Origin: Gammaproteobacteria bacterium
Lineage (GTDB): Bacteria > Pseudomonadota > Gammaproteobacteria > Steroidobacterales > Rariloculaceae
Length of the DNA stretch: 64,000 nt
Assembly: GCA_022820625.1 (NCBI GenBank)
Contig: JAJEFE010000146.1
Location: forward strand, 1 to 64,000
Direction of reading: 5' to 3'
Shown here: one piece after another, positions 20,182 to 62,680 of the stretch
How positions within the stretch are numbered: the first letter of the stretch is position 1
How the letters are laid out: each line of letters starts with the position of its first letter
Translations under genes and position numbers: made by a program
Notes under the pieces: generated by a model
The model's input: only the letters and a program-made list of their open reading frames with translations
Told to the model about the DNA's origin: nothing
The model's database searches: none

Positions 20182-20892
20182 ATGCCGGATGATCCCCAGA
20201 CACTGAATCCGGTCCAACGCCAAACGATTCTTGACTGGCTCGATTCGAGCGACGCGGGCATCGTACCCACCCCCGGATACCAGGCTTCGATTCGAATATA
20301 CAAGGGTCCCGCCGGTGACTTTGCCATCAAGGAACCATCGGGTCGGGGATTGCTGAGAGCCCTCAGCAAGGCTGCAATCAGAAGGGAAGCGGACGTTTAC
20401 CGCCGGCTTCAGGGCATCCCCGGAATTCCCGCGTGCTTCGGTTGCCTCGACGACCGCTATCTTGTCCTTGAACACATACCCGGCGATACGCTGCACGCGC
20501 TTGAAAACGAACTGATGTACCGCGAAAAGTTCTTTGCAAAGCTGCTGGAAACGCTCCGGACGATGCACGATGCCGGTGTGGCGCACGGAGACCTGAAGCG
20601 CAAGAAAAACATCCTGGTGGGACCGGCCGAGCAGCCGTACGTGATCGACTTCGGTATTGCAGTACTAGCCGACAATCAGCGCGGATTCCTGTTCGACCTG
20701 GTCCGCCAGGTCGATCGCAACGCCTGGATCAAACACAAGTACCGCGGCCGCACAAAGGAAATCGCGGCCGAAGATGCGCCACTCTACAAACCCATGCGCT
20801 CGGAACGCCTGATGCGACTACTGCGGCCGGCCTGGCATGCAGCAACGCTCCGACGCTGGAGAAAACGACGCCGAAACATGCGCCAAACCTGA
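20182..20892 (+). CDS. Small protein-kinase-fold enzyme (lipopolysaccharide kinase-like)
   Basis: 236 residues with a kinase fold reduced to its core: a beta-3 Lys in FAIKEPSG (~50), catalytic loop HGDLKRKKNIL (~134), and DFG in VIDFGIAV (~155). The HGDLK form, basic C terminus and short length resemble Kdo/WaaP-type or RIO-like kinases rather than Hanks-type kinases, so the target may be a lipid A/core sugar or another envelope molecule. Pairing with a membrane methyltransferase supports a role in lipid or glycolipid modification (inference). Confidence 0.72.
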   Translation: MPDDPQTLNPVQRQTILDWLDSSDAGIVPTPGYQASIRIYKGPAGDFAIKEPSGRGLLRALSKAAIRREADVYRRLQGIPGIPACFGCLDDRYLVLEHIPGDTLHALENELMYREKFFAKLLETLRTMHDAGVAHGDLKRKKNILVGPAEQPYVIDFGIAVLADNQRGFLFDLVRQVDRNAWIKHKYRGRTKEIAAEDAPLYKPMRSERLMRLLRPAWHAATLRRWRKRRRNMRQT

Positions 20893-36300: not shown

Positions 36301-37280
36301 AGCGAACCCGGGTCATAAAGAAGCATCTCGCCCCTGACGACTCGCCCCAGGAGCGCCAGCGTCTGCCGTTGCGCGCGCGTGCGGCCGGTCAGGAACGTGC
36401 GAATGTGGCTGAGAAGTGCTTCGTTACGTCGCGCGCCCGGACCGAGGAACTGATCCTTCAGCACCTCTTCGAGTTTGCCGGGCATGCCGCCTCGGCGCGC
36501 CAGTCCCCGTGCGATCTTCTGGGTGAGAAAGGGTTGACCCGACGCCCAGGAGAAAATTTCCCGAAGTGCGCCGTGTCCGTGCCGGGTGTCCTCCCCGAAT
36601 CCCGGCGCCAACTCGTAAGTTTCCTCCAGGTTGAAGTCGTGCAAGTCGATGCGGCGACCTTCGACGAACGGGGAAATCGAGGTATCCGGGCAAAGCTGCC
36701 GCGGCGCTGCAACGCCCAGCACGACGAAGTTCAACCGCGCAAGTTCGGGTTCCGTCGTGCGGCCAGTGTAGCATGACCGGATGCCGCCGAACAACTCTTT
36801 TGCAAACGGCAGACCGATGGCCCGTTCGATCTCGTCCAGGAACACGGTAACGGGTTCCGTGGTGTTGGGGAGTACCACCTCCCAGAAGAATTCGGCAAGC
36901 CTTTGCTCACCCGGCAGCGCGCCCTTGGCTTGCCACCAGGACTGCAGATCCACCTTCAGCCGAAGTTCGCGCAGCACCCTGTAGGCAATACTGTAGGACC
37001 AGCGGCCGGCCTCTGCTCCTCCGGCCCCCTCGCCGCCCATGCCGATCTGGGTCAGATCCACGACAGCGACCAACTGACCCTCGGCACGCAGGCTGCGGAC
37101 CGCGCGGGCCATCAGACTGGATTTGCCGCTGGCCCTGGGGGCCAGGACGTAGCAGAACTGCCGATCCCGGATGCCCTGCAACAGCGCCGCGTCCGCGGAT
37201 CTCTCGATGTAGCACGCCCGATCAGGCTGAACCGCACCGCCTACGGCAAAGAACTGGCCTGTTTGAGAGACCCTGGACAA
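33312..37280 (-). CDS. AAA-like ATPase / TM / P-domain / WD40 fusion protein
   Basis: 1322 residues from a TTG at 37280, preceded by AGGAG at good spacing; a longer open frame reaches 37487 but lacks family sequence. Residues 1-365 are an AAA-like (AAA_35 type) NTPase with the opening FFAVGGAVQPDRACYIER, P-loop APRASGKSS (47-55) and Walker B VFLDEIE (~146-152). A single transmembrane helix lies at 373-391. A helical region follows, then a proprotein-convertase-like P-domain (about 576-676). The rest (~690-1322) is WD40 repeats forming one or two propellers. The layout implies a cytoplasmic ATPase tethered to a large periplasmic sensor. Distant relatives are STAND-like signalling ATPases. No partner gene is obvious. 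Confidence 0.8.
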   Translation of the reverse strand: MSRVSQTGQFFAVGGAVQPDRACYIERSADAALLQGIRDRQFCYVLAPRASGKSSLMARAVRSLRAEGQLVAVVDLTQIGMGGEGAGGAEAGRWSYSIAYRVLRELRLKVDLQSWWQAKGALPGEQRLAEFFWEVVLPNTTEPVTVFLDEIERAIGLPFAKELFGGIRSCYTGRTTEPELARLNFVVLGVAAPRQLCPDTSISPFVEGRRIDLHDFNLEETYELAPGFGEDTRHGHGALREIFSWASGQPFLTQKIARGLARRGGMPGKLEEVLKDQFLGPGARRNEALLSHIRTFLTGRTRAQRQTLALLGRVVRGEMLLYDPGSLANHLLLLSGVIGVRADGRLAFRNKLFERVFGREWVTSVMPFNWRRWSVAATVVAALIAGSIWYVRYVPRPHIDTLMSVTADLDADMQAHDRLGRLPGFAGVADRLLASVMERRSREAESFEDVTGFDAVLRGLEGYGDLADRLMDEYWVRRAEDAIRQERRDEALLLSARAAAGGDENARRLAAELVGDDYRSLVRSFRLTEAPARWEVDWQSGELALVDLDHQVRRLRLNSFGRMDFENRLTSLQHLPVSREITVNEPGSAGAFQLRLTLDHPAPEELLATLQAPSGAQVSFAPGAESSGSFSIAAGGRSPLAILADENRRGVWRLTLVDRGVESAGQLISWGLYFAEEVRGWEDQPQGLAISDPLRTDQVDVDLSIDGRLAIAHPSRQSVVGAVSLWDLRTNSLVGDVQLDAEPEYVALTGDTSRILAVAGNSLELWDARTGDLVSRVGTQTGFMLPPALTDSGGHVVIAEQLDEQDSLYSLFRTEDGELLSSVAGPAGVTGWMLGPDAGYLVLIGPSRLVRVMDPRSGEVLRELPHQRDPVRLVAAATGDLLLTIDDIGDMFVWHLNGTPPGSAQGVRLGQTGAPESVSIAADASKVAYQALAGQVVVRGLTGRSAPMSFGVSQEGAPIHTRLAPDGSRLLTYNEQQFQLWRLADTGPAGVVDAELTAIGLDPVESIAVLGFQDGHVGVTREGQADIPLSADPGVNFIGHQGSITSIAVNAAGDVIASGGSDGLVRTWELDSGAPTAPFMRHPQGPVHVVTISDDGQWLASGAELTARVWHAADGELVREVPVSGGVVSIAVDSRSGLLSVGDRDGNVFLTGVESVETPGSVRVGAAATALAFGAGGSRLVSGDAAGNVQLWEVEGLAPVGEPHNFVHPVRWLGFNGDGRFLLVQTDHWMHRFSMDDDGLVLAGSRLLDAGTEAGAALLVPDGSRIRMIGGRETGEPRFRELDMVRSGAEPLPSDSVLLSRNWSRILGLSVGEGGEVVRDTY

Positions 37281-37468
37281 ACCTTTCGCTCCTGATCGAC
37301 GCTCACGCCGGAATGATCGTTCCGGCGCAGATTGTTGTATTCCGACGCATCGAAACTCGCCGATGATCCGCCCGAGTCCACCCGCGCGCCGGCGAGACAT
37401 CCGGGTTAAGATTGTAGCAGGCAAAGCCTGCCTCGCTTGGCGGGCCGGAACGCAAAGGAACCTCGGGA

Positions 37469-37738
37469 ATGGATATCTGCCATCCACACAATCTCAATCG
37501 GCTGCCCACCTCCGAAAAGCCCTATGGCATTCGCGTCAGGCTGCCGGCCGGGGATACTTTCGGAAGCCTCCTCGGGACGGACTGGGAGCAGTTCCATTGG
37601 TACGCCAGCCGCGCGGAGCGCGACGCGGTGCTCAGGGACATGGCCAGCGAGCACCTCTATTCCCGGAGCGGAGACCGCCCGCACCTGATACACGAAGCCG
37701 TGCAGGCGCCCGACACGCCGAACGATCCTTCCGTATAA
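37469..37738 (+). CDS. Conserved small protein of unknown function
   Basis: 89 residues, hydrophilic, starting MDICHPHNLNRLPTSEKPYG, with the memorable segment DWEQFHWYASRAERDAVLRD and YSRSGDRPHLI. It resembles a small uncharacterised proteobacterial family whose members share a W-E-x-x-H-W-Y segment followed by an ERD helix, from memory. GGGA precedes the ATG. Transcribed divergently from the AAA/WD40 gene. Confidence 0.6.
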   Translation: MDICHPHNLNRLPTSEKPYGIRVRLPAGDTFGSLLGTDWEQFHWYASRAERDAVLRDMASEHLYSRSGDRPHLIHEAVQAPDTPNDPSV

Positions 37739-49388: not shown

Positions 49389-50153
49389 TCACTGGTCGGT
49401 TGCCGCTGCTATCGATTGGCGCGTCACGCGCGATTCATCATCCCTGGGTATGACCGTCAGTTGCACGCGACGTTCCATGGCGAGCCCGTCGAGATCGTTC
49501 TCCGCCGCCGACGAATGCTGCTCGCCGTAGGAATTCACGCTGATCCGCTCCGCCGGGACACCGGCGCGAATCAACGTCTCCATGACCGCGGCAGCGCGCT
49601 GCGCGGATAGCAGCTCATTGTGATCGGTCTCACCGCGGGAATCGGCGTAGCCCTCAATGCGCACCAGCATGCCGTCCAGTTCGGCCAGCGCACCCGCCAA
49701 CCGTACCAACCGCCGCTGGGTCTCGTCGGGAAGCGTGTCCTCGTCCGTCCTGAAGAGCACCTGGACATCCAGCGCGTCGCGAACCGCGGCCCGCAGTTGG
49801 CGTGTTTCCTGGCGCGAACGGGACTCCAGTTCCGCCACCTGCGATTCCATGGAAGAAACCTGTTGCTCGGCATCGTTCAGCAAGCCGTCGAGTTCCGTCA
49901 CCCGCGTCTCCGACGCCATCCAGTTCTGCTCGAATTCATCCCGCGCCTGACCCTGCTGGTGGAACTGGTCGCCCAGCCAGGCGCCCACCGCGGCGCCGAC
50001 GATGAATCCCACCGGGCCGCCGGCCGCCGCACCGATGGCCCCGCCGCTGCCGATGCCGATGGTTTCGTACGTGGAAGTCCTTGTTTCGTCCGCTGCCCAA
50101 CCTGCGGTCGAAAACGCGGCGGCAACCAAAAGGACGATTGCGTTTCTGATCAT
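49389..50153 (-). CDS. OmpA-like protein with glycine zipper
   Basis: 254 residues from the ATG at 50153, which starts a signal peptide (IRNAIVLLVAAAFSTAGWA); the longer frame to 50228 has no support. A glycine-zipper segment (IGIGSGGAIGAAAGGPVGF, ~32-50) probably inserts in a membrane. A coiled-coil stretch (~75-125) follows, then a C-terminal OmpA/MotB peptidoglycan-binding domain with IEGYADSRGETDHNELLSAQ and ERISVNSYGE. The layout resembles PdsO-type sortase-associated proteins, but no sortase is here. It follows the ten-gene cluster on the same strand, separated by the hairpin element at 50325-50469. Confidence 0.83.
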   Translation of the reverse strand: MIRNAIVLLVAAAFSTAGWAADETRTSTYETIGIGSGGAIGAAAGGPVGFIVGAAVGAWLGDQFHQQGQARDEFEQNWMASETRVTELDGLLNDAEQQVSSMESQVAELESRSRQETRQLRAAVRDALDVQVLFRTDEDTLPDETQRRLVRLAGALAELDGMLVRIEGYADSRGETDHNELLSAQRAAAVMETLIRAGVPAERISVNSYGEQHSSAAENDLDGLAMERRVQLTVIPRDDESRVTRQSIAAATDQ

Positions 50154-50494
50154 GGCGTTACTCCTCTGTCTGTCTGCCCGTGCTTTCCTGCACGCCGACA
50201 TTGAAGCGCAAACGCCGGTCAACTCCATGATGGATCAGGGCAACGAACGTGGCAAAAATGATGAATTGTGATGGGTGGCTAACCGGCTCCACATCCGAGA
50301 CGTCCACAAAACGCATCCCCCGCTGCGGGCGCGTGTGCAGATACCGCTTGCGCACTTAATCTCGCCCGCCATCCCTGGCGGGCTCGAATCGGGGCTCGGC
50401 GCTCCTGGCCATCCATGGCCCCGCGCCGAGCCCACGACGTGCGCAAGCGGTATCTGCACACGCGCCCGCGGCTAAACTTGCGAATCGCCCGAGA
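50154..50494. other. 341-nt intergenic region holding hairpin element C
   Basis: Between the OmpA-like gene and the last vWA gene. Apart from the element at 50325-50469, I see no gene or clear promoter. The OmpA-like promoter, if separate, should lie within 50154-50324. Confidence 0.6.
50325..50469. repeat. Conserved-core, unique-arm hairpin element (copy C)
   Basis: Perfect 31-bp inverted arms (50325-50355 and 50439-50469) enclose an 83-nt core (50356-50438) that is the reverse complement of copy B's core with 7 substitutions. The arms share nothing with those of B or A. In the first core hairpin, substitutions relative to B keep pairing (G-C to T-A, and T-G to G-C). It lies between two genes transcribed in the same direction. 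Confidence 0.9.
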
Positions 50495-51502
50495 TTAACC
50501 CCGCCGCAGCGTCGGCAGCGCCACGAACGTGCCGCCGTTTCTCTGGCACAGCTCGCGCATCAGGACCGCGTAGCGCGCGGACGTTCCCAGCTGGCCGTCG
50601 AATGCCACGTAGTAGACGGGAAACGCCACCGCGTGGATCCGCACGCGAGGGGTGCCGTCCGTGGCAATTCGGTTGCGCCGGTCCACCTCCCGAACCACCG
50701 CGTCGATGGACCCCGAGGAGAAATCGTCGCTGTAGACATACAGACTGATCTTTTTTTCCGGGTCGTAGAACGTATCGATCGCGGCGAGGATGCCTTCGCG
50801 GGGGCTGGAGTTCGAAAAGACGCGCCAGTTGCGCAACGCATCGATGATCGATTCGCGAATCGTCGGCGTATCGGGGATCCACTCGTTGCGGTAGCTCCTG
50901 AACATGTAGTCGCCCATGTCGTTCAGGACCTGAATCCCCCTGACCTGGGGATAGACCTCAAGCGTTTCGCGTATCTGCTGCTGGACCCGATTCCAGGCGT
51001 ACTGCTGCATGCTCCCGGAAGTATCGATGATGAAGATGATGTACTCGCTGTCCACGGGGATGCCGCCCACCATGTACTCGTCCGGATCGGGCCGGTAGTC
51101 GGCGAGCAGGCGCTGCATCTCCTCCGTGAGACTCTGTCTCGCCAGGACCAGTTCGTTCTGGATCTCCTCGGCCAGTTCAACACCGTCCAGGGAAGCCAGG
51201 AATTCAGCACGGATGCGTTCGAGTTCGTCCTCGAGCTGCGCGATTTCGATCTCGTCGACATCCACCCGCTCGACCGTGGCGCTGCGTTCGCGCGTCACCT
51301 CTTCGGTCTCGCCCAGAATCTCCTCCAGCTCCTGCTCGTACCGGGCGATCAGGCCCTCCAGTTCGACATGGCTCTCTTCCAGGCGGATCGGCTCGAAGAT
51401 CTTGGCGATCACCAGCAACAGAATCACCGCGCCGAATCCGCAGCACACCACGTCCAGGAACGACAGGCTCCCGGTTTCGATATCGCGTCGGGTCTTGCTC
51501 AT
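50495..51502 (-). CDS. vWA protein with TolR/ExbD-like membrane anchor (1)
   Basis: 335 residues from the ATG at 51502, which overlaps the previous stop as ATGA; another ATG lies two codons earlier. One N-terminal helix (~13-34) contains SFLDVVCCGFGAVILLL with Asp17 at its start, as in TolR/ExbD/MotB stators. A long coiled coil (~42-135) follows, then a von Willebrand A domain with a MIDAS motif DTSGSM (D160, S162, S164) that should bind Mg2+. The bulk of the protein is likely periplasmic. It shares the SFLD-x3-CGFGAVIL motif with the next vWA protein. Last gene of the cluster. Confidence 0.82.
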   Translation of the reverse strand: MSKTRRDIETGSLSFLDVVCCGFGAVILLLVIAKIFEPIRLEESHVELEGLIARYEQELEEILGETEEVTRERSATVERVDVDEIEIAQLEDELERIRAEFLASLDGVELAEEIQNELVLARQSLTEEMQRLLADYRPDPDEYMVGGIPVDSEYIIFIIDTSGSMQQYAWNRVQQQIRETLEVYPQVRGIQVLNDMGDYMFRSYRNEWIPDTPTIRESIIDALRNWRVFSNSSPREGILAAIDTFYDPEKKISLYVYSDDFSSGSIDAVVREVDRRNRIATDGTPRVRIHAVAFPVYYVAFDGQLGTSARYAVLMRELCQRNGGTFVALPTLRRG

Positions 51503-52587
51503 GGCCAATCCTCCGAGGGCGCCATCATCGATCCGCCCGTGTCAAGCGCCATCAGCCAGTACGCCGGGGCTGCCGACGGATCCCCTTCCATGGCGTAGAG
51601 AATGATGTTCACCGGCACATTGAACGGCAGCGACCGCCGGGCCCGCTCGAAGTGCCGCACGCGCTCCTCCCCGGTTACGCCCGGCCGGTTGGGCGGGACC
51701 TCTCCCATGGTGGGCAACCCGTCGACCAGCAGGTAGATGTTATCCGGTCTGGGGTCCAGCGGACGCATGGCCGCGAAAGCCGCGTGCAGGCTGGTGGGAC
51801 CCTGCGGTACCGTCTCACCCAGTTTCTCCACCGCCGCATCGAGCTGGCTGCCGTCGACGATGGTATGCCATGCCGTGCCGTCTCCATCCAGCAACGACCA
51901 GGCCGTGTCGTTGAAGGCGAAAATCTGGATCTCCGTGCCGGGGGGTATCTGGGTCGTCAGCCAGTCGAGGGTATTCACCACCTGGCGCCACTTGGGCGCC
52001 TGCAGTTGCTGCTCTTCGCTCATGTTGCGGCGCCGGAAGATGTTGACCACCGTGCGGTCCAGCATGCTGGTGGAGGCATCGACGAGAATGACCACGCGCT
52101 GCCCGCCCATTCGCAGGCCCGTCAGGTATTGACGATTGCCTTCACCGGTGAAGCCTCGCAGGCGATCGCCGGCAATCTGCGGCGTCTGGGCGTCGGCCAG
52201 GCGCTCGGTTTCCGCTTCCAGTTCCTCCAGTTCCGCGCGCAGGCGCTCGATGATCTCGTCCCTCGTCGAACTGTCCGCGTTGATCGCGTCGGACTCCTCC
52301 TCGATGTTGCGGATTTCGGTGACGATCTGTTCCCGCCGGTCCCTGAGAATGGACCATTGCTCGATCAGGCGAACCAGGTCCTCCTTCATCTCGACCAGGT
52401 TTCGGCGCCCGGTGAGCACCTTGAGTTCCATCCGGTCCACTTCGCTGGCCAGGTCGTCCAGGGTATCCTCGCGGCGAAGGTCGATATTGGCGTTGATGAT
52501 CATGAAGAACAGGATCACCGCCCCGAATCCGCAGGTCATCGCGTCCAGGAAGGACAGCGAAAAGACGTTCATCTGCTTACGGGCCAT
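51499..52587 (-). CDS. vWA protein with TolR/ExbD-like membrane anchor (2)
   Basis: 362 residues from the ATG at 52587, preceded by GGTGGAGG and lying 11 nt inside the end of the FHA gene. N-terminal helix (~12-33) with SFLDAMTCGFGAVILFF and Asp15, a coiled coil (~40-135), and a vWA domain with MIDAS residues in LVDASTSML (D170, S172, S174). Paralogous in plan to the following gene, suggesting a heterodimeric partner set for the TolQ/MotA-like channel three genes upstream in the transcript. Confidence 0.82.
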   Translation of the reverse strand: MARKQMNVFSLSFLDAMTCGFGAVILFFMIINANIDLRREDTLDDLASEVDRMELKVLTGRRNLVEMKEDLVRLIEQWSILRDRREQIVTEIRNIEEESDAINADSSTRDEIIERLRAELEELEAETERLADAQTPQIAGDRLRGFTGEGNRQYLTGLRMGGQRVVILVDASTSMLDRTVVNIFRRRNMSEEQQLQAPKWRQVVNTLDWLTTQIPPGTEIQIFAFNDTAWSLLDGDGTAWHTIVDGSQLDAAVEKLGETVPQGPTSLHAAFAAMRPLDPRPDNIYLLVDGLPTMGEVPPNRPGVTGEERVRHFERARRSLPFNVPVNIILYAMEGDPSAAPAYWLMALDTGGSMMAPSEDWP

Positions 52588-53980
52588 CGTGCGCCTCCAC
52601 CGAAATGACCTGCAGTTCTTCGCCGGGCGAACCCACGCGAATGACATCGGCCGGACGCAGAACCGTTTCGCCGCGAACGCGCTTCTCGTTGACGAATGTC
52701 CCGAAGCGGCTGCTGTCCTTCAGACGCAATTCCCCGTCCCGCCGGGCGACCTCGCAGTGGGCGCGGGACACCGCCTGGTGCTGATCGTCGATGACGATCG
52801 TGCGGCGCCCGTTGACGGCTTCCCGGCCAATGTGCAACGCACTTTGCCCCACGGGAAGCGCAACGCCACGGTGCACGACATGCGTAGCCGCACCTTCGGC
52901 ATCCGGCACCGGCGGCGGCTCATTGACAGGTTCGACCTCCTCGACCGTCAAGGGTCCGTCCCGCTCCGGTTCGAGCCGCCACGGCAGCCGCTTGAGCAGC
53001 TTCACCTGACCGGAAGCCGAACCCAGCCGATCGACGCACACCAGGGCCCCCATCACGGCGGCATCGCGAGGCAGGGTCACGATTCGGGTATCGTCAAGGC
53101 GTTTCAATTCGGATTCCAGACCCGGAAGACGCCCGACACGGTGAGACACCTGCAGCGTGAGGCTGGCGCCCGGCTCCCGTTGTTGCGCCACGAATTGGAC
53201 CACCGCGCGCCAGGCGCCGGCTGCGACGCCGAGCACTTGTTTGCGGTCCAACCGGACGATGCGTTCCTCTCCGCCGAACGTCAGTCCGAGTTCGACGTCG
53301 TCGTCGCTGTGCAGCGCAGCCAGCGACTCCGGCAACCGGTCGTAGACGAGCTGCTCGGATTCGGCGCGGTGAAATGGATCGAAGCGCGTCTGCAGCACGA
53401 ACATTTCCGCCACGCGCTTGGCCCAGAGATCCATCAGCGACACAAGCCCGATGCCGTTCAGCGCCTCCTCCGGATCGGCGGCAACGCCATCGCCCTGCCT
53501 CAGTCCCGTCGCAGAGAAGCGGTGCAGGTGGACATCCAGGTGGACCAGCTGGCACCCCGGCCACGGGCGTGCACTGGCCGCTGCGGCCGCGTTGACCATC
53601 GCCCGAACCGGCATCCGGCATTCCTGAACCAGCCCCAGCAGCAAACCCAGTTGCTCCCGGTTGTAGTGGCCCGGCACGACGAGTACCGCCTGCTTGCCCG
53701 AGCCGCCGAACCGGCTCCACAATGCGTCCAGTTGCCTGTAGGCGAGTTCCGCAGAACTGCCGACACCTTCAATTCCCGCGCTTTCGGGGTCCAGGCTCAG
53801 GTTTTCCCAATAGCGATTGCTGGTTTGCCGGGGACGCAGCCGCGCCTGGGCGTATGCCGTGGCCCCGGTGAGGCACTTGCCGCCCTCCATCGAAGCGTAA
53901 CCGGGCTCCACGGCCAGCACGCCGGAACCATCGGCGACGGTCAACCCCGCGTCATTGATCTCGATGGCCAGCGTGTTCAC
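52577..53980 (-). CDS. Hsp70/actin-like ATPase domain fused to an FHA domain
   Basis: 467 residues. Residues 1-~280 resemble an actin/Hsp70 nucleotide-binding fold: AIEINDAGLTV (5-15) at the phosphate-1 position, VLVVPGHYNREQLGLLLGL (99-117) followed by MVNAAAAA, like Hsp70's VPAYFN...NEPTAAA, and LVHLDVHLHRFSATGL at phosphate-2. The DLGGG glycines are missing there, so ATPase activity may be weak. The C terminus (~375-455) is an FHA domain with IGRE, SRAHCEV and GTFVNEKRV, which reads phosphothreonine. It probably recognises a target of the Hanks kinase encoded upstream in the same run. Confidence 0.75.
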   Translation of the reverse strand: MNTLAIEINDAGLTVADGSGVLAVEPGYASMEGGKCLTGATAYAQARLRPRQTSNRYWENLSLDPESAGIEGVGSSAELAYRQLDALWSRFGGSGKQAVLVVPGHYNREQLGLLLGLVQECRMPVRAMVNAAAAASARPWPGCQLVHLDVHLHRFSATGLRQGDGVAADPEEALNGIGLVSLMDLWAKRVAEMFVLQTRFDPFHRAESEQLVYDRLPESLAALHSDDDVELGLTFGGEERIVRLDRKQVLGVAAGAWRAVVQFVAQQREPGASLTLQVSHRVGRLPGLESELKRLDDTRIVTLPRDAAVMGALVCVDRLGSASGQVKLLKRLPWRLEPERDGPLTVEEVEPVNEPPPVPDAEGAATHVVHRGVALPVGQSALHIGREAVNGRRTIVIDDQHQAVSRAHCEVARRDGELRLKDSSRFGTFVNEKRVRGETVLRPADVIRVGSPGEELQVISVEAHDGP

Positions 53981-54015
53981 TGTTCGCTACGTCCCGTTGT
54001 CAGCCCGCCTGCCCG

Positions 54016-54822
54016 TCAGCTCCTGCCCCGTACCTGCATGTGCCTGATCAGATTGTGGTCGATGTACGTCTGCGTATCGAAGACCTGGCGCTCCTGGAGC
54101 AGCTGCAACTGGTGCACCAGGAACATGACCACGATGGAGATCAGCAGTGCGATGAACGTGCTGTTGAAGGCCGTGCCCAGGCTTTCGGTCACGCCGGCGA
54201 TATCGCCGTCCACGGCCCGGTGCGCCTGGCTCAGGGCCTCACCGATACCCCGGACGGTGCCGATAAATCCCACCGAAGGGATGGCCCAGGCGATGTACCG
54301 GATCATGGAGAGCTCCGATTCCAGGCGCTCGCCCTCCGACTCGCAGAGCGTATTCGCCACCGAAGAGACGTCCTGAACGTTTCGTGTCGACCCGAAGCGC
54401 TCCAGGGACGAGAGCATCACCCGCGGCAACAGCATCCCGCGCAACTGGTCCGGCAGGGACTGAATATTGCGTGCATACTCCCGGGTATCCTCGGGGAGGA
54501 TGCGGACCCCCTCCGGCACGGGCACCAGTTCCTCCTGCAGCAACTTGCGTTCTCCGACCGCCCTGAACGCCTTGAAGCCCATGATCGAGAAGGCCCAGAA
54601 CATGAGCACGAAACACGCCTCCTGCTCGAAATCCCGAATGAGAACGTACAGCGAGCGCTCGGGGGTGTAGGTCTCGTCCTGCTCGATCAGCATGGCCTGC
54701 TCGGCCATGACCGCCGTGGCCTGGGGGCGGATCAGCGTCACGTACACGGCGTGTACGATGATCACCGCGATGATCAGCGCGAAAACCTGGTAAAGGAATT
54801 CGCTGGAAAAACTTCGGTTCAT
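54016..54822 (-). CDS. MotA/TolQ/ExbB-like ion channel protein
   Basis: 268 residues with transmembrane segments near 10-30, 68-88, 178-196 and 218-238. The conserved pair of C-terminal helices carries IPSVGFIGTVRGIGEAL and SLGTAFNSTFIALLISIVV, matching the G-x-x-G-T-V-x-G and T-A-x-A signatures of TolQ/ExbB/MotA. It would form an ion-conducting pentamer around the vWA proteins' anchor helices. A cytoplasmic loop of about 85 residues separates helices 2 and 3. 17 nt after the small acidic protein. Confidence 0.85.
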   Translation of the reverse strand: MNRSFSSEFLYQVFALIIAVIIVHAVYVTLIRPQATAVMAEQAMLIEQDETYTPERSLYVLIRDFEQEACFVLMFWAFSIMGFKAFRAVGERKLLQEELVPVPEGVRILPEDTREYARNIQSLPDQLRGMLLPRVMLSSLERFGSTRNVQDVSSVANTLCESEGERLESELSMIRYIAWAIPSVGFIGTVRGIGEALSQAHRAVDGDIAGVTESLGTAFNSTFIALLISIVVMFLVHQLQLLQERQVFDTQTYIDHNLIRHMQVRGRS

Positions 54823-54839
54823 CTGCGTCCTGCCTGAGT

Positions 54840-55166
54840 CTAAAAGTCCACCGGAAACGTCACGGGTTCGTCCGCGCGGATGTTTTGGCTGGGGACAAAG
54901 AGTTCATCAAGGGGCGGGACTTCCGGAAAAGCCTCACCGGCTTCGGTCGCGCCGGCTTCGGTCGCGCCCGCATCCGCGATGACTTCGGGTTGTTCCTCGC
55001 TACCCGCTTCCGCCTCTTCGCCCGCCGCGGCGGAATCGTCCTCGGCTGCAACCTCTTGCTGCGCGTCCGCTGCAGCCGAGTTTTCCTCCGCAACCTCCTG
55101 CGCAATGCCGGCGAAAATCCACAATCCCAACAATCCGGCGGCGCAGATTCGTATTACCGCAGTCAC
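54840..55166 (-). CDS. Small acidic secreted protein
   Basis: 108 residues from a GTG at 55166 with GGAGGT six bases upstream; the frame opens earlier without support. Signal peptide (AVIRICAAGLLGLWIFAGIAQ), then an Ala/Glu-rich low-complexity stretch and a short C-terminal segment ending FPVDF. No known domain. Embedded in the cluster between the SUMF1/PEGA gene and the channel gene, so probably a periplasmic accessory. Confidence 0.65.
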   Translation of the reverse strand: MTAVIRICAAGLLGLWIFAGIAQEVAEENSAAADAQQEVAAEDDSAAAGEEAEAGSEEQPEVIADAGATEAGATEAGEAFPEVPPLDELFVPSQNIRADEPVTFPVDF

Positions 55167-55228
55167 GTTGATACCTCCGCAATATGGCCATCGGCCGCCA
55201 AATAACATTTGACCATGCTACATCGAAA

Positions 55229-57664
55229 TCATTCCAGGTTGCGCGCGATCCTGAAGCCGGTCCATTCGTCTCCGTCGGCGCTGAAACCCCGGGACGCCAT
55301 GCGCAATTCGGTCACCGTCGCGCCGCGCCAACTGGGTCCCCTGACCACTCTGAATCGCCCGTCCACGGGCCCGAGCGGATCCTCGACCACCGCCTCGGTC
55401 TCGGTCCGGCCGACCTCATAGTAGTCTTGAACCCATTCCGAAACATTACCACCGAGGTCGAAAATCCCCAGCGGATTGGCCGGGAAGCTCCCGGACGGAG
55501 CCGACACGACGTAACCGTCGTTATAGGTAACCAGAGTTGTGGGCAGCAACTGCCTGGCTGAAATGTCGGCGAAATTTCCGATCCGGTCGGGCGGAGGCAG
55601 CTCCGCGCCCCATGCATAAATCAGGGGTTCCTCGCGGTTGGCAAAGCGGGCTGCCCACGCCCATTCAGCTTCGCTGGGCAGACGGTAACCGCTGCGCAGC
55701 GGCCGGACCGGCAACCATGTGCCGTCGGCCTCTTCATAGACGGGTTGCAGCCCGTCCGTGATACTCAACCAGTTCATGAACTGCGCCACCTGTTCCCAGG
55801 TTATCCGAACTACCGGCTGTTCGTCGCCGTCCAGCGATTCGCCAGAGAACGAGCCCGAATCATGCTCGGGATCGAACTGCCGGAATTCCGCGTTGCTGAC
55901 CTCCCTTGCTCCCAGGTAAAACCCTTCGGTAAGCCTGACGGCGCGCAACGCCTCGTTGGATCGGCGTCCCTGTTCGCGGCGCGATGACCCCATGGTGAAC
56001 TCGCCCGGCAGCACCAAACGCAACTCCTGACCGAGGCTTGTCTGGACGAGCTGCGGGTACCCGGCTCCGGTCACCGTATTCTGCGCAACCAGAGTCACGT
56101 CCCAACGTTGGGGAAAGCCGGTCCGTGGCGTCACGGTTGTCAACTGCGAGGCATACCCGTCAAGCCGGATTTCCAGTTCATGGAGCACCGCGAGCAGGTT
56201 GAGCTGCCTCGGCGCGACACCAGCGAATTCGCCGTCGACATAGATCTCCGCAGCCTCCGGGTCGGTCACCACTTCGATCATGCCGAATTGCGCCGTCAGC
56301 GGGACTTCCAGCCGCCGGCCGCTGTCCGCCTCCACGGAAAGCTCCCGGGTCTCGGTATCGTAGCCGGGTCTGGTCAGGGTGATGGCGTGCGGGCGGCCCG
56401 GCCGGAGCCTCAGGGTCAGCGGTGTCGCGCCCTGGTACTCGCCGTTGACGCTGACCGCCGCGCCTGCGGGGTCGGTGACCAGTTCCACCCGCCCGTCGGC
56501 CTGGGTCAGGATGACCTCGGGTACGCTCAGCGGCTGGTCGGCAAGCACCGTGATCGTGTCGCGCCACGCGTTGTAACCCGCAAGCCGCAACTCCACTTGC
56601 CGCTCGCCGGCGCCCAGTTCCAGTTCAGCCGGGGTGGTCGCCATGGCGGTGCCGTCCACCAGCACCTGAGCGCCATCCGGCCGGCTGCTCAGGCTGACCG
56701 GCGCCCAGTTCGGGGTCAGTTCGGCGGCAAGACTCTGCCGCCGGCCCTCGCCGAACACATCGAGCTCCAGCACCTCGGAAAGGAACCGCTCGGCGATGAA
56801 CTCCACCCGGCGCCGGCCCGGCTCGACTTCCACGTCGGTCAGCGGGGCGGTACCGATGGAAACGCCGTCCACGTGGATATCCGCCGCCACGTCCGGTTCC
56901 GTGGTGAATGTGATGAGCCCGGGGAGCTTGGCCAGTTCGAGCTCCACCGTCTGGGCGGGCAACTGGCCAACCTCGATGACCACATCCAGTTCATGGTAGC
57001 CGTCCCGCCGGGCGACCACGCGATGGGATCCGGATCGAACCAGGAACCTGTCGCCGATGCGGAACTTGAACAGCGTACCCGGCAAACCGACTTCATCCGC
57101 CAGCGGTACGGTCACCAGTTGCACGGACTTTGCCGTGAAGGCAAACCACCCGGCGATCGCCAGTACGCCGAAGGCCGTGCCCACGATGACGGCGGTGCGC
57201 CGTTTACGCCCGCCGTGATCCACGGCCGTCTCGCTCATGCCCGGCCGGAACGCGATGGGCTCCACCGCGACGTCGTCGTCTTCGGATATCTCCAGGGCCA
57301 GCTCTTCAAGATCCGGCGGCGCCGTATCGCCGCCGGTCACCTGGCCCTCGATCGACAGTTCCAGCCGCTCGCCCCGCAAACCGCAGTGGGCCCGCGCGGT
57401 GTCCAGCGCGATCATCTGACCGTCCCTGAGCCAACGTGACCCGGTGACGAGCTCGCCGTCCAGGCGCAGTCCACGGGTATTCTTGCCCGGCTGGACGAAA
57501 TAGGCACCGTCAAGGGTGCCGATCTGCAGCGAGCCTGAAATACCTTGCAAGCGGATATCGCACTCCGGACCGCCGCCGATGAGTACCGGCAATTCGGCGG
57601 CCGAAAACCGTCGTTCTTCGCCTCCAACCCTTGCGGTCAGCACGCAGCGATCGATATCCGCCAT
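55229..57664 (-). CDS. FHA-like / TM / PEGA / SUMF1-domain protein
   Basis: 811 residues from the ATG at 57664, which overlaps the preceding stop as TGATG. A degenerate FHA-like domain (~1-100) is followed by one transmembrane helix (~160-180). At least four PEGA-type beta repeats come next, each with a DGxxxGxxP or equivalent core (for example VDGEFAGVAP). The C-terminal ~250 residues form a SUMF1/formylglycine-generating-enzyme fold (PGEFTMGSS, YRLPSEAEWAWAARF, GIFDLGGNVSEWVQDYY, RVVRGPSWRG). This domain has no cysteine, so it cannot be a normal formylglycine-generating enzyme; PvdO-like or structural roles are more likely. It spans the inner membrane, linking a cytoplasmic phospho-reader to periplasmic domains. 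Confidence 0.82.
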   Translation of the reverse strand: MADIDRCVLTARVGGEERRFSAAELPVLIGGGPECDIRLQGISGSLQIGTLDGAYFVQPGKNTRGLRLDGELVTGSRWLRDGQMIALDTARAHCGLRGERLELSIEGQVTGGDTAPPDLEELALEISEDDDVAVEPIAFRPGMSETAVDHGGRKRRTAVIVGTAFGVLAIAGWFAFTAKSVQLVTVPLADEVGLPGTLFKFRIGDRFLVRSGSHRVVARRDGYHELDVVIEVGQLPAQTVELELAKLPGLITFTTEPDVAADIHVDGVSIGTAPLTDVEVEPGRRRVEFIAERFLSEVLELDVFGEGRRQSLAAELTPNWAPVSLSSRPDGAQVLVDGTAMATTPAELELGAGERQVELRLAGYNAWRDTITVLADQPLSVPEVILTQADGRVELVTDPAGAAVSVNGEYQGATPLTLRLRPGRPHAITLTRPGYDTETRELSVEADSGRRLEVPLTAQFGMIEVVTDPEAAEIYVDGEFAGVAPRQLNLLAVLHELEIRLDGYASQLTTVTPRTGFPQRWDVTLVAQNTVTGAGYPQLVQTSLGQELRLVLPGEFTMGSSRREQGRRSNEALRAVRLTEGFYLGAREVSNAEFRQFDPEHDSGSFSGESLDGDEQPVVRITWEQVAQFMNWLSITDGLQPVYEEADGTWLPVRPLRSGYRLPSEAEWAWAARFANREEPLIYAWGAELPPPDRIGNFADISARQLLPTTLVTYNDGYVVSAPSGSFPANPLGIFDLGGNVSEWVQDYYEVGRTETEAVVEDPLGPVDGRFRVVRGPSWRGATVTELRMASRGFSADGDEWTGFRIARNLE

Positions 57665-59178
57665 CAGATCGGCTCCACGCATTCCACGCGGATGGGATCC
57701 AGCGGCTGTCCCGGCAGAACGGTGAAGGTCATGCGCACGTCGCGGTAGCCGGACCGGCTCCCAACCACGGTGTAAGCGCCGGGGCGAAGTTCTAGATCCC
57801 TGACCAGAAACTGCCCAAGACGACCGACCCGAAACAGCGTGACCTCCGTCTGTTCATCGGACTGCAACTGCACCGGCAGCGGCGTCGAGGCCAGTGTGAG
57901 CAGCCGTTCCAGTGACTCCACCTGATCCCCGAGACGCGGTCCCATAGGGGAAATCCCGCCGGCCTCGGCGGCCAGCAACTGCGCGTCACGCAATACATCA
58001 TCGTCGAAGAGCAGATCGGGGTGGGCGACGAGATTCTGGAGCTTCAGCTCCAGGTCGACGCGATACTGGGTCCGTGTCCGGCCCTCCTGTGCAAAGGCCA
58101 GGGTTGGGTCCGTCTGAAGCGCGTCGTTGTACAGGCGCAGCGCGTCGTCCCAGCGTTCCCGCAACTCGAACGCCAGTGCGCGCGCTTCCACCAGTGCGAT
58201 CTGCTCGAGTTTCAGGCTCTGGTCGGCCTGCGTCTGTGCACTCCGCGCCTCCTCGGAATCGGGGCGCAACGCGAGCGCCTGGGCGAAAAGCTCATGGGCG
58301 TCCTCGAACTCTTCAGCCGCCATGGCGTTCAGTCCCCGAGACATCAGGTTATCGAATCGCCGGTCCCTGATTGTCGCCTCGAGCGCATCGAGTGCAGAGC
58401 GGGCCGGCGCCCAGAGTCCGTCCAGCGCCACCGCCTCGCGATAGGCCCGGACGGCTCCCTCCAGATCGCCGGACCGTTCCAGTTCTTCGCCCTGCCGCAC
58501 GAGCGCCAAAACGTCGGGCAACTGCTGCGCCCGGAGCAGGCCGACCTGGGCGACGGCATTGTCCGGTTCGATCTGTAGCACCAGCGAAAATTGCTCGGCT
58601 GCAACGGCCGCATTGCCGGCCGCAAGCGCCTCACTGGCGGCACCCAGTGCAGCGTCGATCAGTTCGATGGAGCGTGTCAGCAACTCCTCCCCAATGTCGA
58701 GGGCCTGCTCATACGCATCGACGGAATCCCCGAATGCGTCCGCAAGATAGGCATCGTCTCCGCTTCGGCCAAGCTCCTGGTAGGTCTCGAAGTCGTCACT
58801 GCCCCACTCCGCCGCCGATCGCCGATCGAGCTGGGACTGCTGGTTCAACAGCTGCGCCAGTAGTCCATCCGCCTCTTCACGCAGCGCCTCGAGTTCTTCC
58901 TCGGTGTAGACCGGGCCTGTCTCTTCAGGGGGTTCAGGCGGCGGCGGTTCCTCGGCAATGGGTTCCTGCGGCTGTTGGTCATCGACCCAACTTGGCAGCC
59001 ACATGAAGACCACGGCCACCGCAACCACCAACCCGCCGAGCGCCACGAGCCGAACGGGCATGGACATTGCCCGCCCAGGTTCAGGCCGCCGGAACTCCGT
59101 GCCGGGCTTGCGAAAGCCGGGTTCTACCGGGACGATGGTTTCGTCGTGTCCGGGGCTTTGTGGATCCCGTTCCGCCAA
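57664..59178 (-). CDS. Membrane-anchored TPR protein
   Basis: 504 residues. A cytoplasmic tail rich in Pro/Arg (1-38) leads to a single transmembrane helix (~41-61), a Pro/Glu linker (PPPPEPPEETGP), a coiled-coil/TPR region (~95-400), and a C-terminal PEGA-like beta unit (LELRPGAYTVVGSRSGYRDVR). Most of the chain should be periplasmic. The short cytoplasmic tail contains Ser/Thr residues that could be kinase targets. Adjacent to the kinase gene (12-nt gap) and overlapping the SUMF1/PEGA gene. Confidence 0.78.
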   Translation of the reverse strand: MAERDPQSPGHDETIVPVEPGFRKPGTEFRRPEPGRAMSMPVRLVALGGLVVAVAVVFMWLPSWVDDQQPQEPIAEEPPPPEPPEETGPVYTEEELEALREEADGLLAQLLNQQSQLDRRSAAEWGSDDFETYQELGRSGDDAYLADAFGDSVDAYEQALDIGEELLTRSIELIDAALGAASEALAAGNAAVAAEQFSLVLQIEPDNAVAQVGLLRAQQLPDVLALVRQGEELERSGDLEGAVRAYREAVALDGLWAPARSALDALEATIRDRRFDNLMSRGLNAMAAEEFEDAHELFAQALALRPDSEEARSAQTQADQSLKLEQIALVEARALAFELRERWDDALRLYNDALQTDPTLAFAQEGRTRTQYRVDLELKLQNLVAHPDLLFDDDVLRDAQLLAAEAGGISPMGPRLGDQVESLERLLTLASTPLPVQLQSDEQTEVTLFRVGRLGQFLVRDLELRPGAYTVVGSRSGYRDVRMTFTVLPGQPLDPIRVECVEPI

Positions 59179-59190
59179 CGAGCGTATCTC

Positions 59191-60021
59191 CTAGTGATTT
59201 AATCCGACTGATTCTAATGCATGAAGCAGCGGTCCGATGCCCCTGGACAGCGCTGCGTCGCGCTCGTTCAGGATGTCGGTCACAGCTTCCGCCACGTCAC
59301 GCAAGCCGCGCACTCCCGGAACCGGCTGCAACGCTGGAAATACTCGCCGACGCTCTCTATCCGCCAATTGCGGATTCCTGCCGAACGGCAGGTCCCCTGC
59401 CCACAATTCATGAACCAGAACTGCAAGGGCGTAGATATCTTCGGCCGCTTCGGTTCCACGCGCCGGCTCTCGGCGCAGATAGGCCGCCGTTCCACCGCCT
59501 CCCGGCGCCCGGCCGCCAATGCGCGCAGCCATGGCAAAGTCGATCAGGCACGGCATGCCCCCGCTGCGCATCAGGATGTTCCGAGGCTTGAGGTCCCGAT
59601 GAACGATCCCGGAACGATGCAGATGGTCCACGGCGCGCACAATCCGGGTGGCCACGGGCACCCAGATTCGCGGTGGGCCGCCTGCCAGGGACACAAGGTC
59701 TCCACCGTCCAGGTACTCCATGACCATCCCGAGCCCGGACGCGGACGCGGGTCCAGCCTGATCGTCCGGTATACGCACAAGACCGTGGGCCTTGACCACG
59801 TTTGGGTGCGTTATCTCCTTCAGAAAGCAATACTCGCGACGCACCAGCGCACGGACCGCGGCGCGGTTGGCGCTGCCGTTGAGGCGAGGAAACTTAACGG
59901 CGACCCGCCGTCCGTCGGTGGTTACGGCTTCGCGAACCCGGGACATGCCCCCGCGCCCGAGGGGCTCGCCAAGGGTCAAGCCTTTCAGAAAACGCTCTGA
60001 AGTCGTATCACGGGACCGCAT
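59191..60021 (-). CDS. Hanks-type Ser/Thr protein kinase with DFA variant
   Basis: 276 residues, kinase domain only, no transmembrane segment. Glycine loop GRGGMS (22-27), Lys43 (VAVKFP), Glu in RREYCFLKE, catalytic HRDLKPRN (141-148) and a C-lobe with AEDIYALAVLVHELWAG. The DFG motif is DFA (161-163); Asp is kept, so metal binding is likely retained. It is the only Hanks-type kinase in this cluster; two downstream proteins carry FHA or FHA-like domains, so a phosphorelay inside the cluster is probable. Confidence 0.88.
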   Translation of the reverse strand: MRSRDTTSERFLKGLTLGEPLGRGGMSRVREAVTTDGRRVAVKFPRLNGSANRAAVRALVRREYCFLKEITHPNVVKAHGLVRIPDDQAGPASASGLGMVMEYLDGGDLVSLAGGPPRIWVPVATRIVRAVDHLHRSGIVHRDLKPRNILMRSGGMPCLIDFAMAARIGGRAPGGGGTAAYLRREPARGTEAAEDIYALAVLVHELWAGDLPFGRNPQLADRERRRVFPALQPVPGVRGLRDVAEAVTDILNERDAALSRGIGPLLHALESVGLNH

Positions 60022-60080
60022 GAGGCAACGCCTCGCGACAGGGCTGCCCGGGGCGCTGACGCCGTCCTGGCCCCGGTGGA

Positions 60081-61418
60081 TCAGGCTCCCGCGGGGACCG
60101 CAGCGGCTGCATCGGGCACTGCTGCAGTATCGGTTTCGCCTTCCGCAGCTTCGGCAGGTGTCTCAGCCGGTTCAGCGTCTTCCGAAACCGTCTCTTCGGG
60201 CAGCGCCTCCGTGTAGAAATCCATGCTGCCGAGGCCTGTTTCCTCGATGTAAATCTGTCTCAGCAGGTCCCGCCAATCCTCGTACTGGGCTTCGGCGGTT
60301 CCCGTGAACCGGTGCTGAACGCCCTCGATCTCCACCACCATGGGCTTGACTTCCTCGTCGAAACCCACCGAAAGCTCCTCCAGCGCCGAACTGTGGAGCT
60401 GTTTCTCCTGCCGGCGCAGCATGCCGCTCTGCAGCATTTCCATGCTCATGTACATGATCGAGTCGCGCACCACGCGGTCGGCAAAGTCACCGTCGCTGTT
60501 CACTCCGTAGACCACCGAGGCCAGGATGCCCGCGATGCCCAGTCCGGTGCGCCAGCGGCTGGATCTCTGCAGCTCCCGAATGGCGATGGACTCCTCGCGC
60601 GCGAACTCGCGCCAGCCATGGTAGGGCTCCAGCGAGTTCTGGTAGAAATCCACGTAGTGTTCGTTGAGCGTCTCCACGAAGAGGTGCTCGCGGTCGCGAA
60701 CCAATTGGGTTCGTTCGAACTGCGGATCGTCTTCGGCCGGCAGCCGGCTCAGCGAATAGCGTCCGTTGCGCTCCTGCACGACGTAGTCGCCGAACGCTTC
60801 GGGACTCAATTCGCCGGCGAATCGAAGCTGCGAAACCGTCCTGATATTGCGTTTGTCGTCGGATGAAAAGCCGTCCCTGGCGGCGGCCAGATCGTTGGCG
60901 ATCCGGTTGAAGACATCCTGGTAGGGATCCAGCCCCGGGTACTGCTGGCGGTTGAACGCACCGGCTGCCGTCTCCATGAAGTACTCGCCGTCGACCCACA
61001 CCTCGCCGGTCGAATCCACGGCGCGGACCTTCAACCGAAGCTGGCTGCCGTCGGAGTGAATAATCTCTGCGCTGACATTGATGTCCGCCGCCGAGGATTC
61101 CCCGGGAGTGGCCCAGACCGCTCCCCAGTGACCGCTCCTTTGCAACGTATCCCGGAGGTGCACGGCCAGGTACCGCGATTCGGCGCGCCGGATATGTACA
61201 AAGGTGCCGTCGCGCAGCAACTCCTCCAGTATTTCCTTCTCGATTTCACCTTCCGGGACGCCTGGGTCGAATACCACCACGCCCACGTCGAGCAGTTCGT
61301 CTTCCGGAACGGTTTCGGTTTCCGCAACCAGTTGTACGGAATGGGGGATGAGCACCTGGTTGCTGCTGCATCCCGCCAGCAACCCGATGCCCAATGCGAA
61401 AATTGCAAGTCTTCTCAT
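60081..61418 (-). CDS. Lipoprotein of unknown function (445 aa)
   Basis: Signal peptide with a lipobox LLAGC (Cys17). The mature protein has a beta-rich first half (DINVSAEIIHSDGSQLRLKVRAV), a central amphipathic segment containing SRWRTGLGIAGILASVVYG, and an acidic, Ala/Pro/Glu-rich tail. I recognise no domain with certainty, although the first half is reminiscent of lipoproteins that assemble multimeric periplasmic rings (weak). It is between the first lipoprotein (12-nt gap) and the kinase. Confidence 0.7.
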   Translation of the reverse strand: MRRLAIFALGIGLLAGCSSNQVLIPHSVQLVAETETVPEDELLDVGVVVFDPGVPEGEIEKEILEELLRDGTFVHIRRAESRYLAVHLRDTLQRSGHWGAVWATPGESSAADINVSAEIIHSDGSQLRLKVRAVDSTGEVWVDGEYFMETAAGAFNRQQYPGLDPYQDVFNRIANDLAAARDGFSSDDKRNIRTVSQLRFAGELSPEAFGDYVVQERNGRYSLSRLPAEDDPQFERTQLVRDREHLFVETLNEHYVDFYQNSLEPYHGWREFAREESIAIRELQRSSRWRTGLGIAGILASVVYGVNSDGDFADRVVRDSIMYMSMEMLQSGMLRRQEKQLHSSALEELSVGFDEEVKPMVVEIEGVQHRFTGTAEAQYEDWRDLLRQIYIEETGLGSMDFYTEALPEETVSEDAEPAETPAEAAEGETDTAAVPDAAAAVPAGA

Positions 61419-61429
61419 GACTGCCGCAC

Positions 61430-62680
61430 CTATTGAGCTATGATCTTCCTGTACTCGTTGTATTCATCCCAGAGGGCCGCCCGCAACAGCGGATCCTCCT
61501 CCTTGGTGGCCGCCTCGCAAAGCTGCCGGGCAACCTTGTCCGTGTCCTCGCATCCCTCGACGGGGGGAGGCGCTTCCTCCGGCAATTCGGCTCGCGCGAG
61601 AATCGGCCGCCGGCTGGCAGGGTCGTTGCCGCCACCGCCACCAGCGGACCCGCCGGTGGGCACGTTGCCGCCGCCATCGGCGCCACCGCCCGGCATGGAG
61701 CCGTCTCCACCGGGCACGCCGCCCGCACCGCCGAAGCCCTCGTCGGCGGCAGAGCCTATGCCGCCCCTGGCGATGGCCTCCTGCTCGGCGCCCATGATTT
61801 CGTCGAAGTCTTCCAGGGATTCGTTGAAGATACCCTCAGCGTCCGATACGCGGCCCGCTACGCCGGTGCCGCCTGCGCCGCTGCCGGGCCAGGCGCCTTC
61901 CTCGCCTCCAGCGCCCGCCGAGTCGCCGCCGAACCCGCCGTCACCGGTCTCCTGACCGCCGCCCGCCTGACGGGAATCGCCGCCCTGACCGCTGCCGTCT
62001 TCGCCGCCCATTCCACCGTTGCCGGATTCCCCGCCACCGGCCTGACGCGAGTCGCCGCCCTGGCCACCCTCTTCGCCGCCGTCACCGCCCGGCATGCCGT
62101 CCTGTCCGCCTCCTCCTTCCTGGCCTTCGCCGCCTGCGCCCTGGCCACCGGCCTGACGTGAATCGCCACCCTGACCGTCTCCGTCTCCTTCCTGACCTGG
62201 AGTACCGCCCATTCGATCACCTGACTGGCCGTCACCGCCATCGCCCTGACCGCCCGCCTGCTGACCCTGCTCGCCCTGCTGACCACCGGAGGGGAAGGGG
62301 AAACCACCGCTCGGTGAGGGTAAGCCGCCGCTGGGGGAAGGCATCCCACCACTCGGCGAGGGCATCCCGCCGCTCGGTGAAGGCATACCGCCACTCGGCG
62401 AGGGCATACCGCCACTCGGTGAAGGCATACCGCCACTCGGCGAGGGCATACCGCCACTCGGTGAGGGCATACCGCCACTCGGTGAGGGCATACCGCCACT
62501 GGGCGAGGGCGGTGGCGGCATTCCGCCGCTCGGTGAGGGCATCCCGCCGCTGGGCGAAGGCGGTGGCGGCATTCCGCCGCTGGGGGGCGGGGGCACCGTT
62601 GACTGGCTCTTGCAACCCAACAGGAGTACAGCGCCTGCGCAAACCAACAACAACCTGAAAGGGATGTTCCCGAGACGCAT
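61430..62680 (-). CDS. Repeat-rich lipoprotein (PSPSGGM heptads and Gly-rich region)
   Basis: 416 residues with a lipobox LLLGC (Cys23). Residues ~30-135 are about a dozen copies of the heptad PSPSGGM, encoded by 21-bp tandem repeats (~62290-62590). A long Gly/Gln/Asp/Glu region follows, with three GGDSRQAGG units. The C-terminal ~120 residues are non-repetitive and carry two cysteines (CEDTDKVARQLC) that could form a disulfide. It probably forms a flexible tether from a membrane to the periplasm or cell surface. First gene of the cluster. Confidence 0.75.
   Translation of the reverse strand: MRLGNIPFRLLLVCAGAVLLLGCKSQSTVPPPPSGGMPPPPSPSGGMPSPSGGMPPPPSPSGGMPSPSGGMPSPSGGMPSPSGGMPSPSGGMPSPSGGMPSPSGGMPSPSGGMPSPSGGLPSPSGGFPFPSGGQQGEQGQQAGGQGDGGDGQSGDRMGGTPGQEGDGDGQGGDSRQAGGQGAGGEGQEGGGGQDGMPGGDGGEEGGQGGDSRQAGGGESGNGGMGGEDGSGQGGDSRQAGGGQETGDGGFGGDSAGAGGEEGAWPGSGAGGTGVAGRVSDAEGIFNESLEDFDEIMGAEQEAIARGGIGSAADEGFGGAGGVPGGDGSMPGGGADGGGNVPTGGSAGGGGGNDPASRRPILARAELPEEAPPPVEGCEDTDKVARQLCEAATKEEDPLLRAALWDEYNEYRKIIAQ
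62285..62590. repeat. 21-bp tandem repeat within a lipoprotein gene
   Basis: About a dozen in-frame 21-bp units (one form: ggtgagggcataccgccactc) encode PSPSGGM. Copy number is likely to vary by slippage without frameshift because the unit is a multiple of three. Confidence 0.8.

Follow-up and report, generated by a model that had tools for sequence, protein, structure and literature searches.

The window analysed here, a stretch of 64,000 nucleotides from contig JAJEFE010000146.1 of a gammaproteobacterium of the family Rariloculaceae (Steroidobacterales; assembly GCA_022820625.1), carries an operon of ten minus-strand genes, A to J, that is likely to encode an envelope machine. We put the probability that A-J make up a trans-envelope, ion-driven motor at roughly 0.62; their products probably assemble into a machine that crosses both membranes and is driven by protons. 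This reading draws on the conserved set and order of the genes, the family of the channel protein G with its ring of threonines, the aspartates and metal-binding motifs of the vWA proteins I and J together with the rod-and-head model of J, the absence of ExbD/TolR from the operon, the fold of the lipoprotein B, the similarity of E to PorK, the tails of A and F, the co-occurrence of kinase with FHA domain and of H with a short motif, the retention of the operon in genomes of 1.2-1.8 Mb, and the independent proposal of such a motor core in 2025 (PMC12204202). The open reading frames (ORFs) run from 62680 to 50495 and are tightly spaced, neighbours being -71 to +59 nt apart; the first-pass annotation had described ten minus-strand genes with gaps below 70 nt, and all ORFs are as it gave them, the largest gap being 59 nt.

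The operon is conserved far above chance. Loci were collected via G, and the co-occurrence counts given throughout describe what accompanies G. Each of 75 distinct loci that are complete from B to J contains B, D, E, G, I and J, always on one strand and with I and J as a pair, and A (69/75), F (72/75) and H (62/75) are near-constant or optional members. One order, A-B-(C)D-E-F-G-(H)-I-J, is found in 72 of the 75, C and D being a single fused protein in many relatives; in the other three, G stands after H or after J (in L049 and L158 it has been relocated to the operon end, after J). G is single-copy in 52 of 58 sampled relatives of the same order, which cover many families and include genomes of 1.2-1.8 Mb. 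Across the class, G was found in 37 of the 369 sampled genomes, in some six of them by a distant match only; a sample of the whole phylum added a G-bearing clade in one other class. A scan of named genomes returned more than 590 places, mostly in gammaproteobacterial metagenome-assembled genomes (MAGs) of Woeseiaceae, Pseudomonadales and Cellvibrionales, with Microbulbifer agarilyticus and Exilibacterium as cultured carriers. The loci L116, L118, L128, L121 and L086 carry MAG labels outside Gammaproteobacteria, which may reflect transfer or misbinning. The operon is conserved and vertically inherited. The first-pass annotation had let its idea of a ten-gene envelope machine stand or fall with gene order in other genomes, and because the order is kept in many of them, the objection that it is conserved nowhere else falls away.

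The motor core consists of G, I and J. G (54016..54822, minus strand, as are all genes of the operon) is by its sequence a TolQ/ExbB/MotA-family channel subunit (PF01618, 7e-14) with about four transmembrane (TM) helices; T189 and T222 are kept in 120 of 120 homologues, and against PDB profiles it matches the TolQ chain 8odt (E 0.005). I (51499..52587) and J (50495..51508) are TM-anchored vWA proteins of the same layout, for which hidden Markov models (HMMs) give weak VWA matches only. In I, an N-terminal TM helix starting at an aspartate (SFLDAMTCGFGAVILFF) is followed by a coiled-coil and a vWA domain whose metal ion-dependent adhesion site (MIDAS) is intact as T/S; in J, the helix likewise begins at an aspartate (SFLDVVCCGFGAVILLL) and the vWA MIDAS is intact. 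The aspartate at the helix start is found in 98% of 98 homologues of I and in 100% of 93 homologues of J, the two proteins share the helix-start consensus SFLDxxxCGFGA, and their N-terminal segments are mutually homologous (hhalign 99.6%). In the AlphaFold 2 (AF2) model of J, helices 17-107 and 112-136 (about 120 residues, comprising the membrane part and a coiled-coil) carry a vWA head at 150-335, which aligns with solved vWA domains at Z of about 17. The annotated ORF of I starts at 52647 and overlaps H by 71 nt; with the start placed at the internal Met codon 21 (base 52587), which is nearly invariant in the alignment of homologues, the overlap is 11 nt and the protein fits the approximately 360-367 aa of most relatives.

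A motor of this kind has been proposed before: in 2025, a TolQ-like gene accompanied by a heterologous pair of vWA proteins with an Asp-bearing trans-pore helix (TPH) was suggested to encode a 5:2 motor driven by the proton-motive force (PMF), and AlphaFold 3 models placed the vWA helix inside a TolQ-like pentamer (PMC12204202, Fig. 4c,d). By their sequence features, G, I and J match this family: a TolQ-like channel gene without tolR, exbD or motB nearby is combined with a heterologous TM-anchored vWA pair, and both the helix aspartate and the channel threonines are conserved. Compared by description, the published motors differ from the present operon in that the text of PMC12204202 defines the channel and the vWA pair only; it mentions no kinase, FHA, PEGA, SUMF1, TPR, lipoprotein or actin-like members and no tails such as those of A or F. 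The operon is thus a greatly enlarged version of a motor type first proposed in 2025, and what is new, within the open-access literature, is the operon beyond G, I and J. The suggestion of an undescribed envelope machine in the first-pass annotation consequently has to be divided, the core having been proposed already and the remaining members not being mentioned there, while its description of an ion-channel subunit with stator-like vWA partners is borne out by the family of G and the anatomy of I and J. The annotation had also noted a partial resemblance to Tol-Pal and to the Zorya defence system without a match to either, which holds, since the defining genes of both are absent from the ten. 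With Tol-Pal and Ton the operon shares the TolQ/ExbB-family channel, the TolB-N-like fold of B and, in some clades, an OmpA-family protein, K; its core, however, lacks TolR/ExbD, TolA, the TolB propeller and Pal, and vWA heads replace the periplasmic TolR domains. Profile searches found none of TolR, TolA, TolB and Pal among the ten operon genes, and no ExbD/TolR gene lies in the operon, the three of this genome sitting on other contigs.

On the envelope side, the lipoproteins A and B and the small protein F gave no confident family match in profile searches of the ten operon proteins. They are nevertheless conserved members (A 69/75, B 75/75, F 72/75) and not the accessories that had first been supposed. 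B (60081..61418; lipobox LAGC) has, in its AF2 model (mean predicted local distance difference test score, pLDDT, 82.9), a domain at residues of about 40-190 followed by a long helical hairpin at 232-356. Modelled in this way, the domain has the CsgG/PelC/FlgT/TolB-N fold: VIA-align Z values are 11.3 for FlgT (over 133 residues), 10.4 for an LPHT ring, 10.3 for PelC (112 residues at 2.4 A), 9.6 for CsgG, 9.2 for TolB and 8.8 for PqiC. FlgT, PelC, CsgG, TolB-N and PqiC all belong to the periplasm or the outer membrane, and several assemble into rings. A (61430..62680; lipobox LLGC) continues with a Pro/Ser/Gly-rich repeat linker and closes with a conserved C-terminal helix ending DTDKVARQLCEAATKEEDPLLRAALWDEYNEYRK, whose consensus DDDIVARQLREAAxxExDPELREKLWEEYRKYK lies directly upstream of B in 69/75 loci. 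The linker of A is a run of PSGGM repeats, of low complexity and with a length that varies widely between genomes. F (54840..55208) is a small secreted acidic protein in which a variable acidic linker leads to a conserved tail at the extreme C-terminus, FPVDF in the window and FP[V/T/S]DI elsewhere, the predicted mature peptide being only about 17 residues long in one clade. This tail is found just after E in 71/75 loci, and its pattern occurs in 0/75 antisense windows and 5/1559 other windows. The tails of A and F look like hooks. That one operon encodes both an Asp-bearing tail and two vWA metal sites hints at a ligand and its receptor, and one may speculate that a vWA metal site binds the tail of F.

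The remaining periplasmic parts are D (57664..59178), with a cytosolic tail, one TM helix by hydropathy (44-62), TPR repeats (TPR_2, 3e-14) and a PEGA-like C-terminus, and E (55229..57682), in which a cytosolic N-terminus of about 160 residues and a TM helix (164-182) precede PEGA repeats (5e-39) and a C-terminal SUMF1-like domain (FGE-sulfatase, 2e-37). The periplasmic reach ascribed to the cluster at the outset holds up. Catalysis as a formylglycine-generating enzyme (FGE) was rejected for the E domain because the catalytic cysteines are missing: E, although similar to FGE, reads GPSWRGATVTELRMAS at their place, and no cysteine is conserved in its alignment. The best NCBIfam match of the domain is GldK (5e-26; 92 bits, below the cut-off of 350), and PorK structures are matched in the PDB at 6e-26. 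This similarity, with the good PDB matches and a fold of B common to CsgG, PelC and FlgT, speaks for an export or gliding machine comparable to GldLM of the type IX secretion system (T9SS) or to Agl-Glt, in which the motor would drive the secretion or surface movement of a cargo, E would be a PorK-like ring part, B an outer-membrane ring and the I/J pair the drive shaft. A PMF motor combined with a SUMF1-like protein is indeed shared with T9SS (GldLM, PorK/GldK, PorN). However, E is anchored in the inner membrane and carries PEGA repeats instead of being a lipoprotein, no homologue of GldM, PorN or Sov was seen in the operon, with only the SUMF1 domain of E matching GldK, and SUMF1 similarity is common to many unrelated proteins. 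The operon also comes without an outer-membrane barrel and without a cargo gene, and the tail of F was rejected as a general sorting tag because FPxDI-stop, a pattern that does not cover the FPVDF form of the window genome, occurs once per genome where found (in 4/6 genomes, nowhere else). We therefore consider export or gliding an unlikely function.

A putative control layer is superimposed on the proposed motor. C (59191..60021; optional) is a Hanks-type Ser/Thr kinase (PF00069, 7e-29) whose catalytic motifs VAVK, HRDLKPRN and DFA are intact in the motif alignment, and H (52577..53980; optional) is a cytosolic Hsp70/actin-like protein (a match to the Hsp70 nucleotide-binding domain covers residues 97-276, E 4.5e-4) with a C-terminal FHA domain (6e-13). 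The kinase is present and intact in 31 of the 75 loci and dead, with HRD lost, in L084, L092, L098, L126 and L062. Wherever the kinase is intact (31 of 31 loci), so is the phosphothreonine-binding signature in the FHA of H; of the loci without an intact kinase, four keep this signature intact, 27 have a degenerate one and 13 lack H. The pairing of a kinase with a phospho-reader, already seen by the first-pass annotation, holds, and the two are suggestive of joint evolution. The other domains named there, TPR, PEGA/SUMF1, MotA_ExbB, the FHA of H and vWA, stand as well; an FHA domain in the N-terminus of E was rejected, having no HMM support. What E does carry on the cytosolic side is a juxtamembrane motif [IV]x[PAS]xxF, VEPIAF in the window. 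Of the 62 loci that have H, 49 carry this motif, where shuffling predicts 2.5, and it is missing from all 13 that lack H; D often has a similar motif. In the simplest reading, H would dock on E (and D), as their co-occurrence indicates, and the kinase would act through the FHA domain of H. PilM-PilN is a known analogue of cytosolic docking on short motifs, and the operon resembles PilM-PilN/GspL in having a cytosolic protein of the actin/Hsp70 fold and bitopic partners whose cytosolic tails bear short motifs; H, in contrast, has no PilM sequence match, the motif differs and binding is deduced. That kinase and FHA travel together would also suit an envelope signalling scaffold without rotation, in which G, I and J act as an ion-gated sensor and the kinase and FHA relay envelope stress. 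Yet the core has outlived the loss of kinase and H many times, so that signalling is not the whole function, and the set contains no conserved regulator gene; such a scaffold seems to us quite improbable.

In the motor reading, five copies of G would assemble in the inner membrane as a pentamer of the TolQ/MotA type, into whose pore I and J would insert their N-terminal helices as a heterodimer, replacing ExbD/TolR/MotB, so that ion flow would turn or pull the I/J pair. In the periplasm these helices would run on as a coiled-coil of about 100 residues bearing two vWA heads, their intact metal sites being modelled for J and assigned by motif for I. The heads may bind partners, with the tail of F as a speculative candidate ligand. 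E, as a PEGA rod with a SUMF1-like cap, and D, with TPR and PEGA-like parts, would extend from the inner membrane through the periplasm. B would either assemble into an outer-membrane ring or dock on one, and the lipoprotein A would serve as a tether whose helix is the hook. On the cytosolic side, H may dock on the tail motifs of E and D as PilM holds PilN, and C would phosphorylate a component that is read by the FHA domain of H, gating the machine through a dispensable layer. The output would lie at the outer membrane, where candidate actions are to stabilise, constrict, export or move something. Several observations weigh against this picture. Profile comparison did not show the I/J helix to be homologous to ExbD/TolR or MotB, although this comparison has almost no power because the control pair, ExbD and MotB, is itself barely detectable. 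The Z values of B are middling and, for a model, support a fold and not a ring. The G+I+J tree shows seven kinase changes, and in independent contrasts the FHA changes the same way about five times and the opposite way never, which is borderline (sign test p 0.06), and the link between H and the motif derives from just three independent losses of H. In its most specific form, as a new class of double-membrane machine with a 5:2 ion motor whose rotor shaft is a vWA heterodimer, a lipoprotein ring in the outer membrane, a secreted peptide with FPxDI as ligand of a vWA metal site and a kinase-gated Hsp70/actin-like clutch in the cytosol, the proposal is possible but tentative.

Anti-phage defence related to Zorya (ZorAB), to which the MotA-family channel with a TM partner, a weak ZorA match (E 5e-4) and the match of the K OmpA domain to ZorB models could point, is extremely improbable and was rejected, as was any other defence role, on distribution (single-copy and near-universal in the order, with one weak match in a plasmid collection), on neighbours (proB-, pgm-, bioF- and bioD-like housekeeping genes flank the operon, and the setting is not one of defence) and on PADLOC, whose matches are otherwise to generic kinases; unlike in Zorya, G (268 aa) has no long ZorA tail, its partners are vWA proteins and not peptidoglycan-binding ones, and the ten proteins include no ZorB, ZorC or ZorD. 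K itself (49389..50228; PF00691, 4e-16) is the OmpA-like gene that had been noted to follow the cluster; it is present, 266 nt downstream of J, and is a doubtful member found in a minority of loci, mainly kinase-bearing ones. It was rejected as a core member, being a neighbour in some clades only, with two different lipoproteins in its place in others. In L039, L125 and other kinase-less loci, these small lipoproteins (lipoX, lipoY) lie near the operon downstream of J, in clades without K and usually without the kinase. Distant relatives of G, at L155:7513-10750 and L153:8994-18452, sit in a different gene set with a single protein bearing the helix NREINIFxxSALDLFASAxGAFIL and, as labelled by eye, zinc-ribbon/FHA-type, PP2C-like and trypsin-like ORFs, joined in L153 by a large kinase; this set is perhaps a second phospho-controlled motor family. 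Elsewhere, the window encodes a 1391-aa protein that combines an AAA-like domain with a proprotein-convertase P-domain and WD40 repeats (33312-37487, minus strand) and a small second kinase-like ORF (20182-20892, plus strand) near an rpoA-like gene of the opposite strand.

If the motor reading is true, many gammaproteobacteria, even streamlined ones, would carry an energised trans-envelope machine that has not yet been studied experimentally, and the few processes that run at the outer membrane on energy from the inner one (Ton, Tol, T9SS/gliding) would gain a new member. The machine would come with built-in phospho-control and with a natural on/off series of loci having an active kinase, a dead kinase or none, and since cultured hosts (Microbulbifer, Exilibacterium) exist, the output of the machine is testable now.

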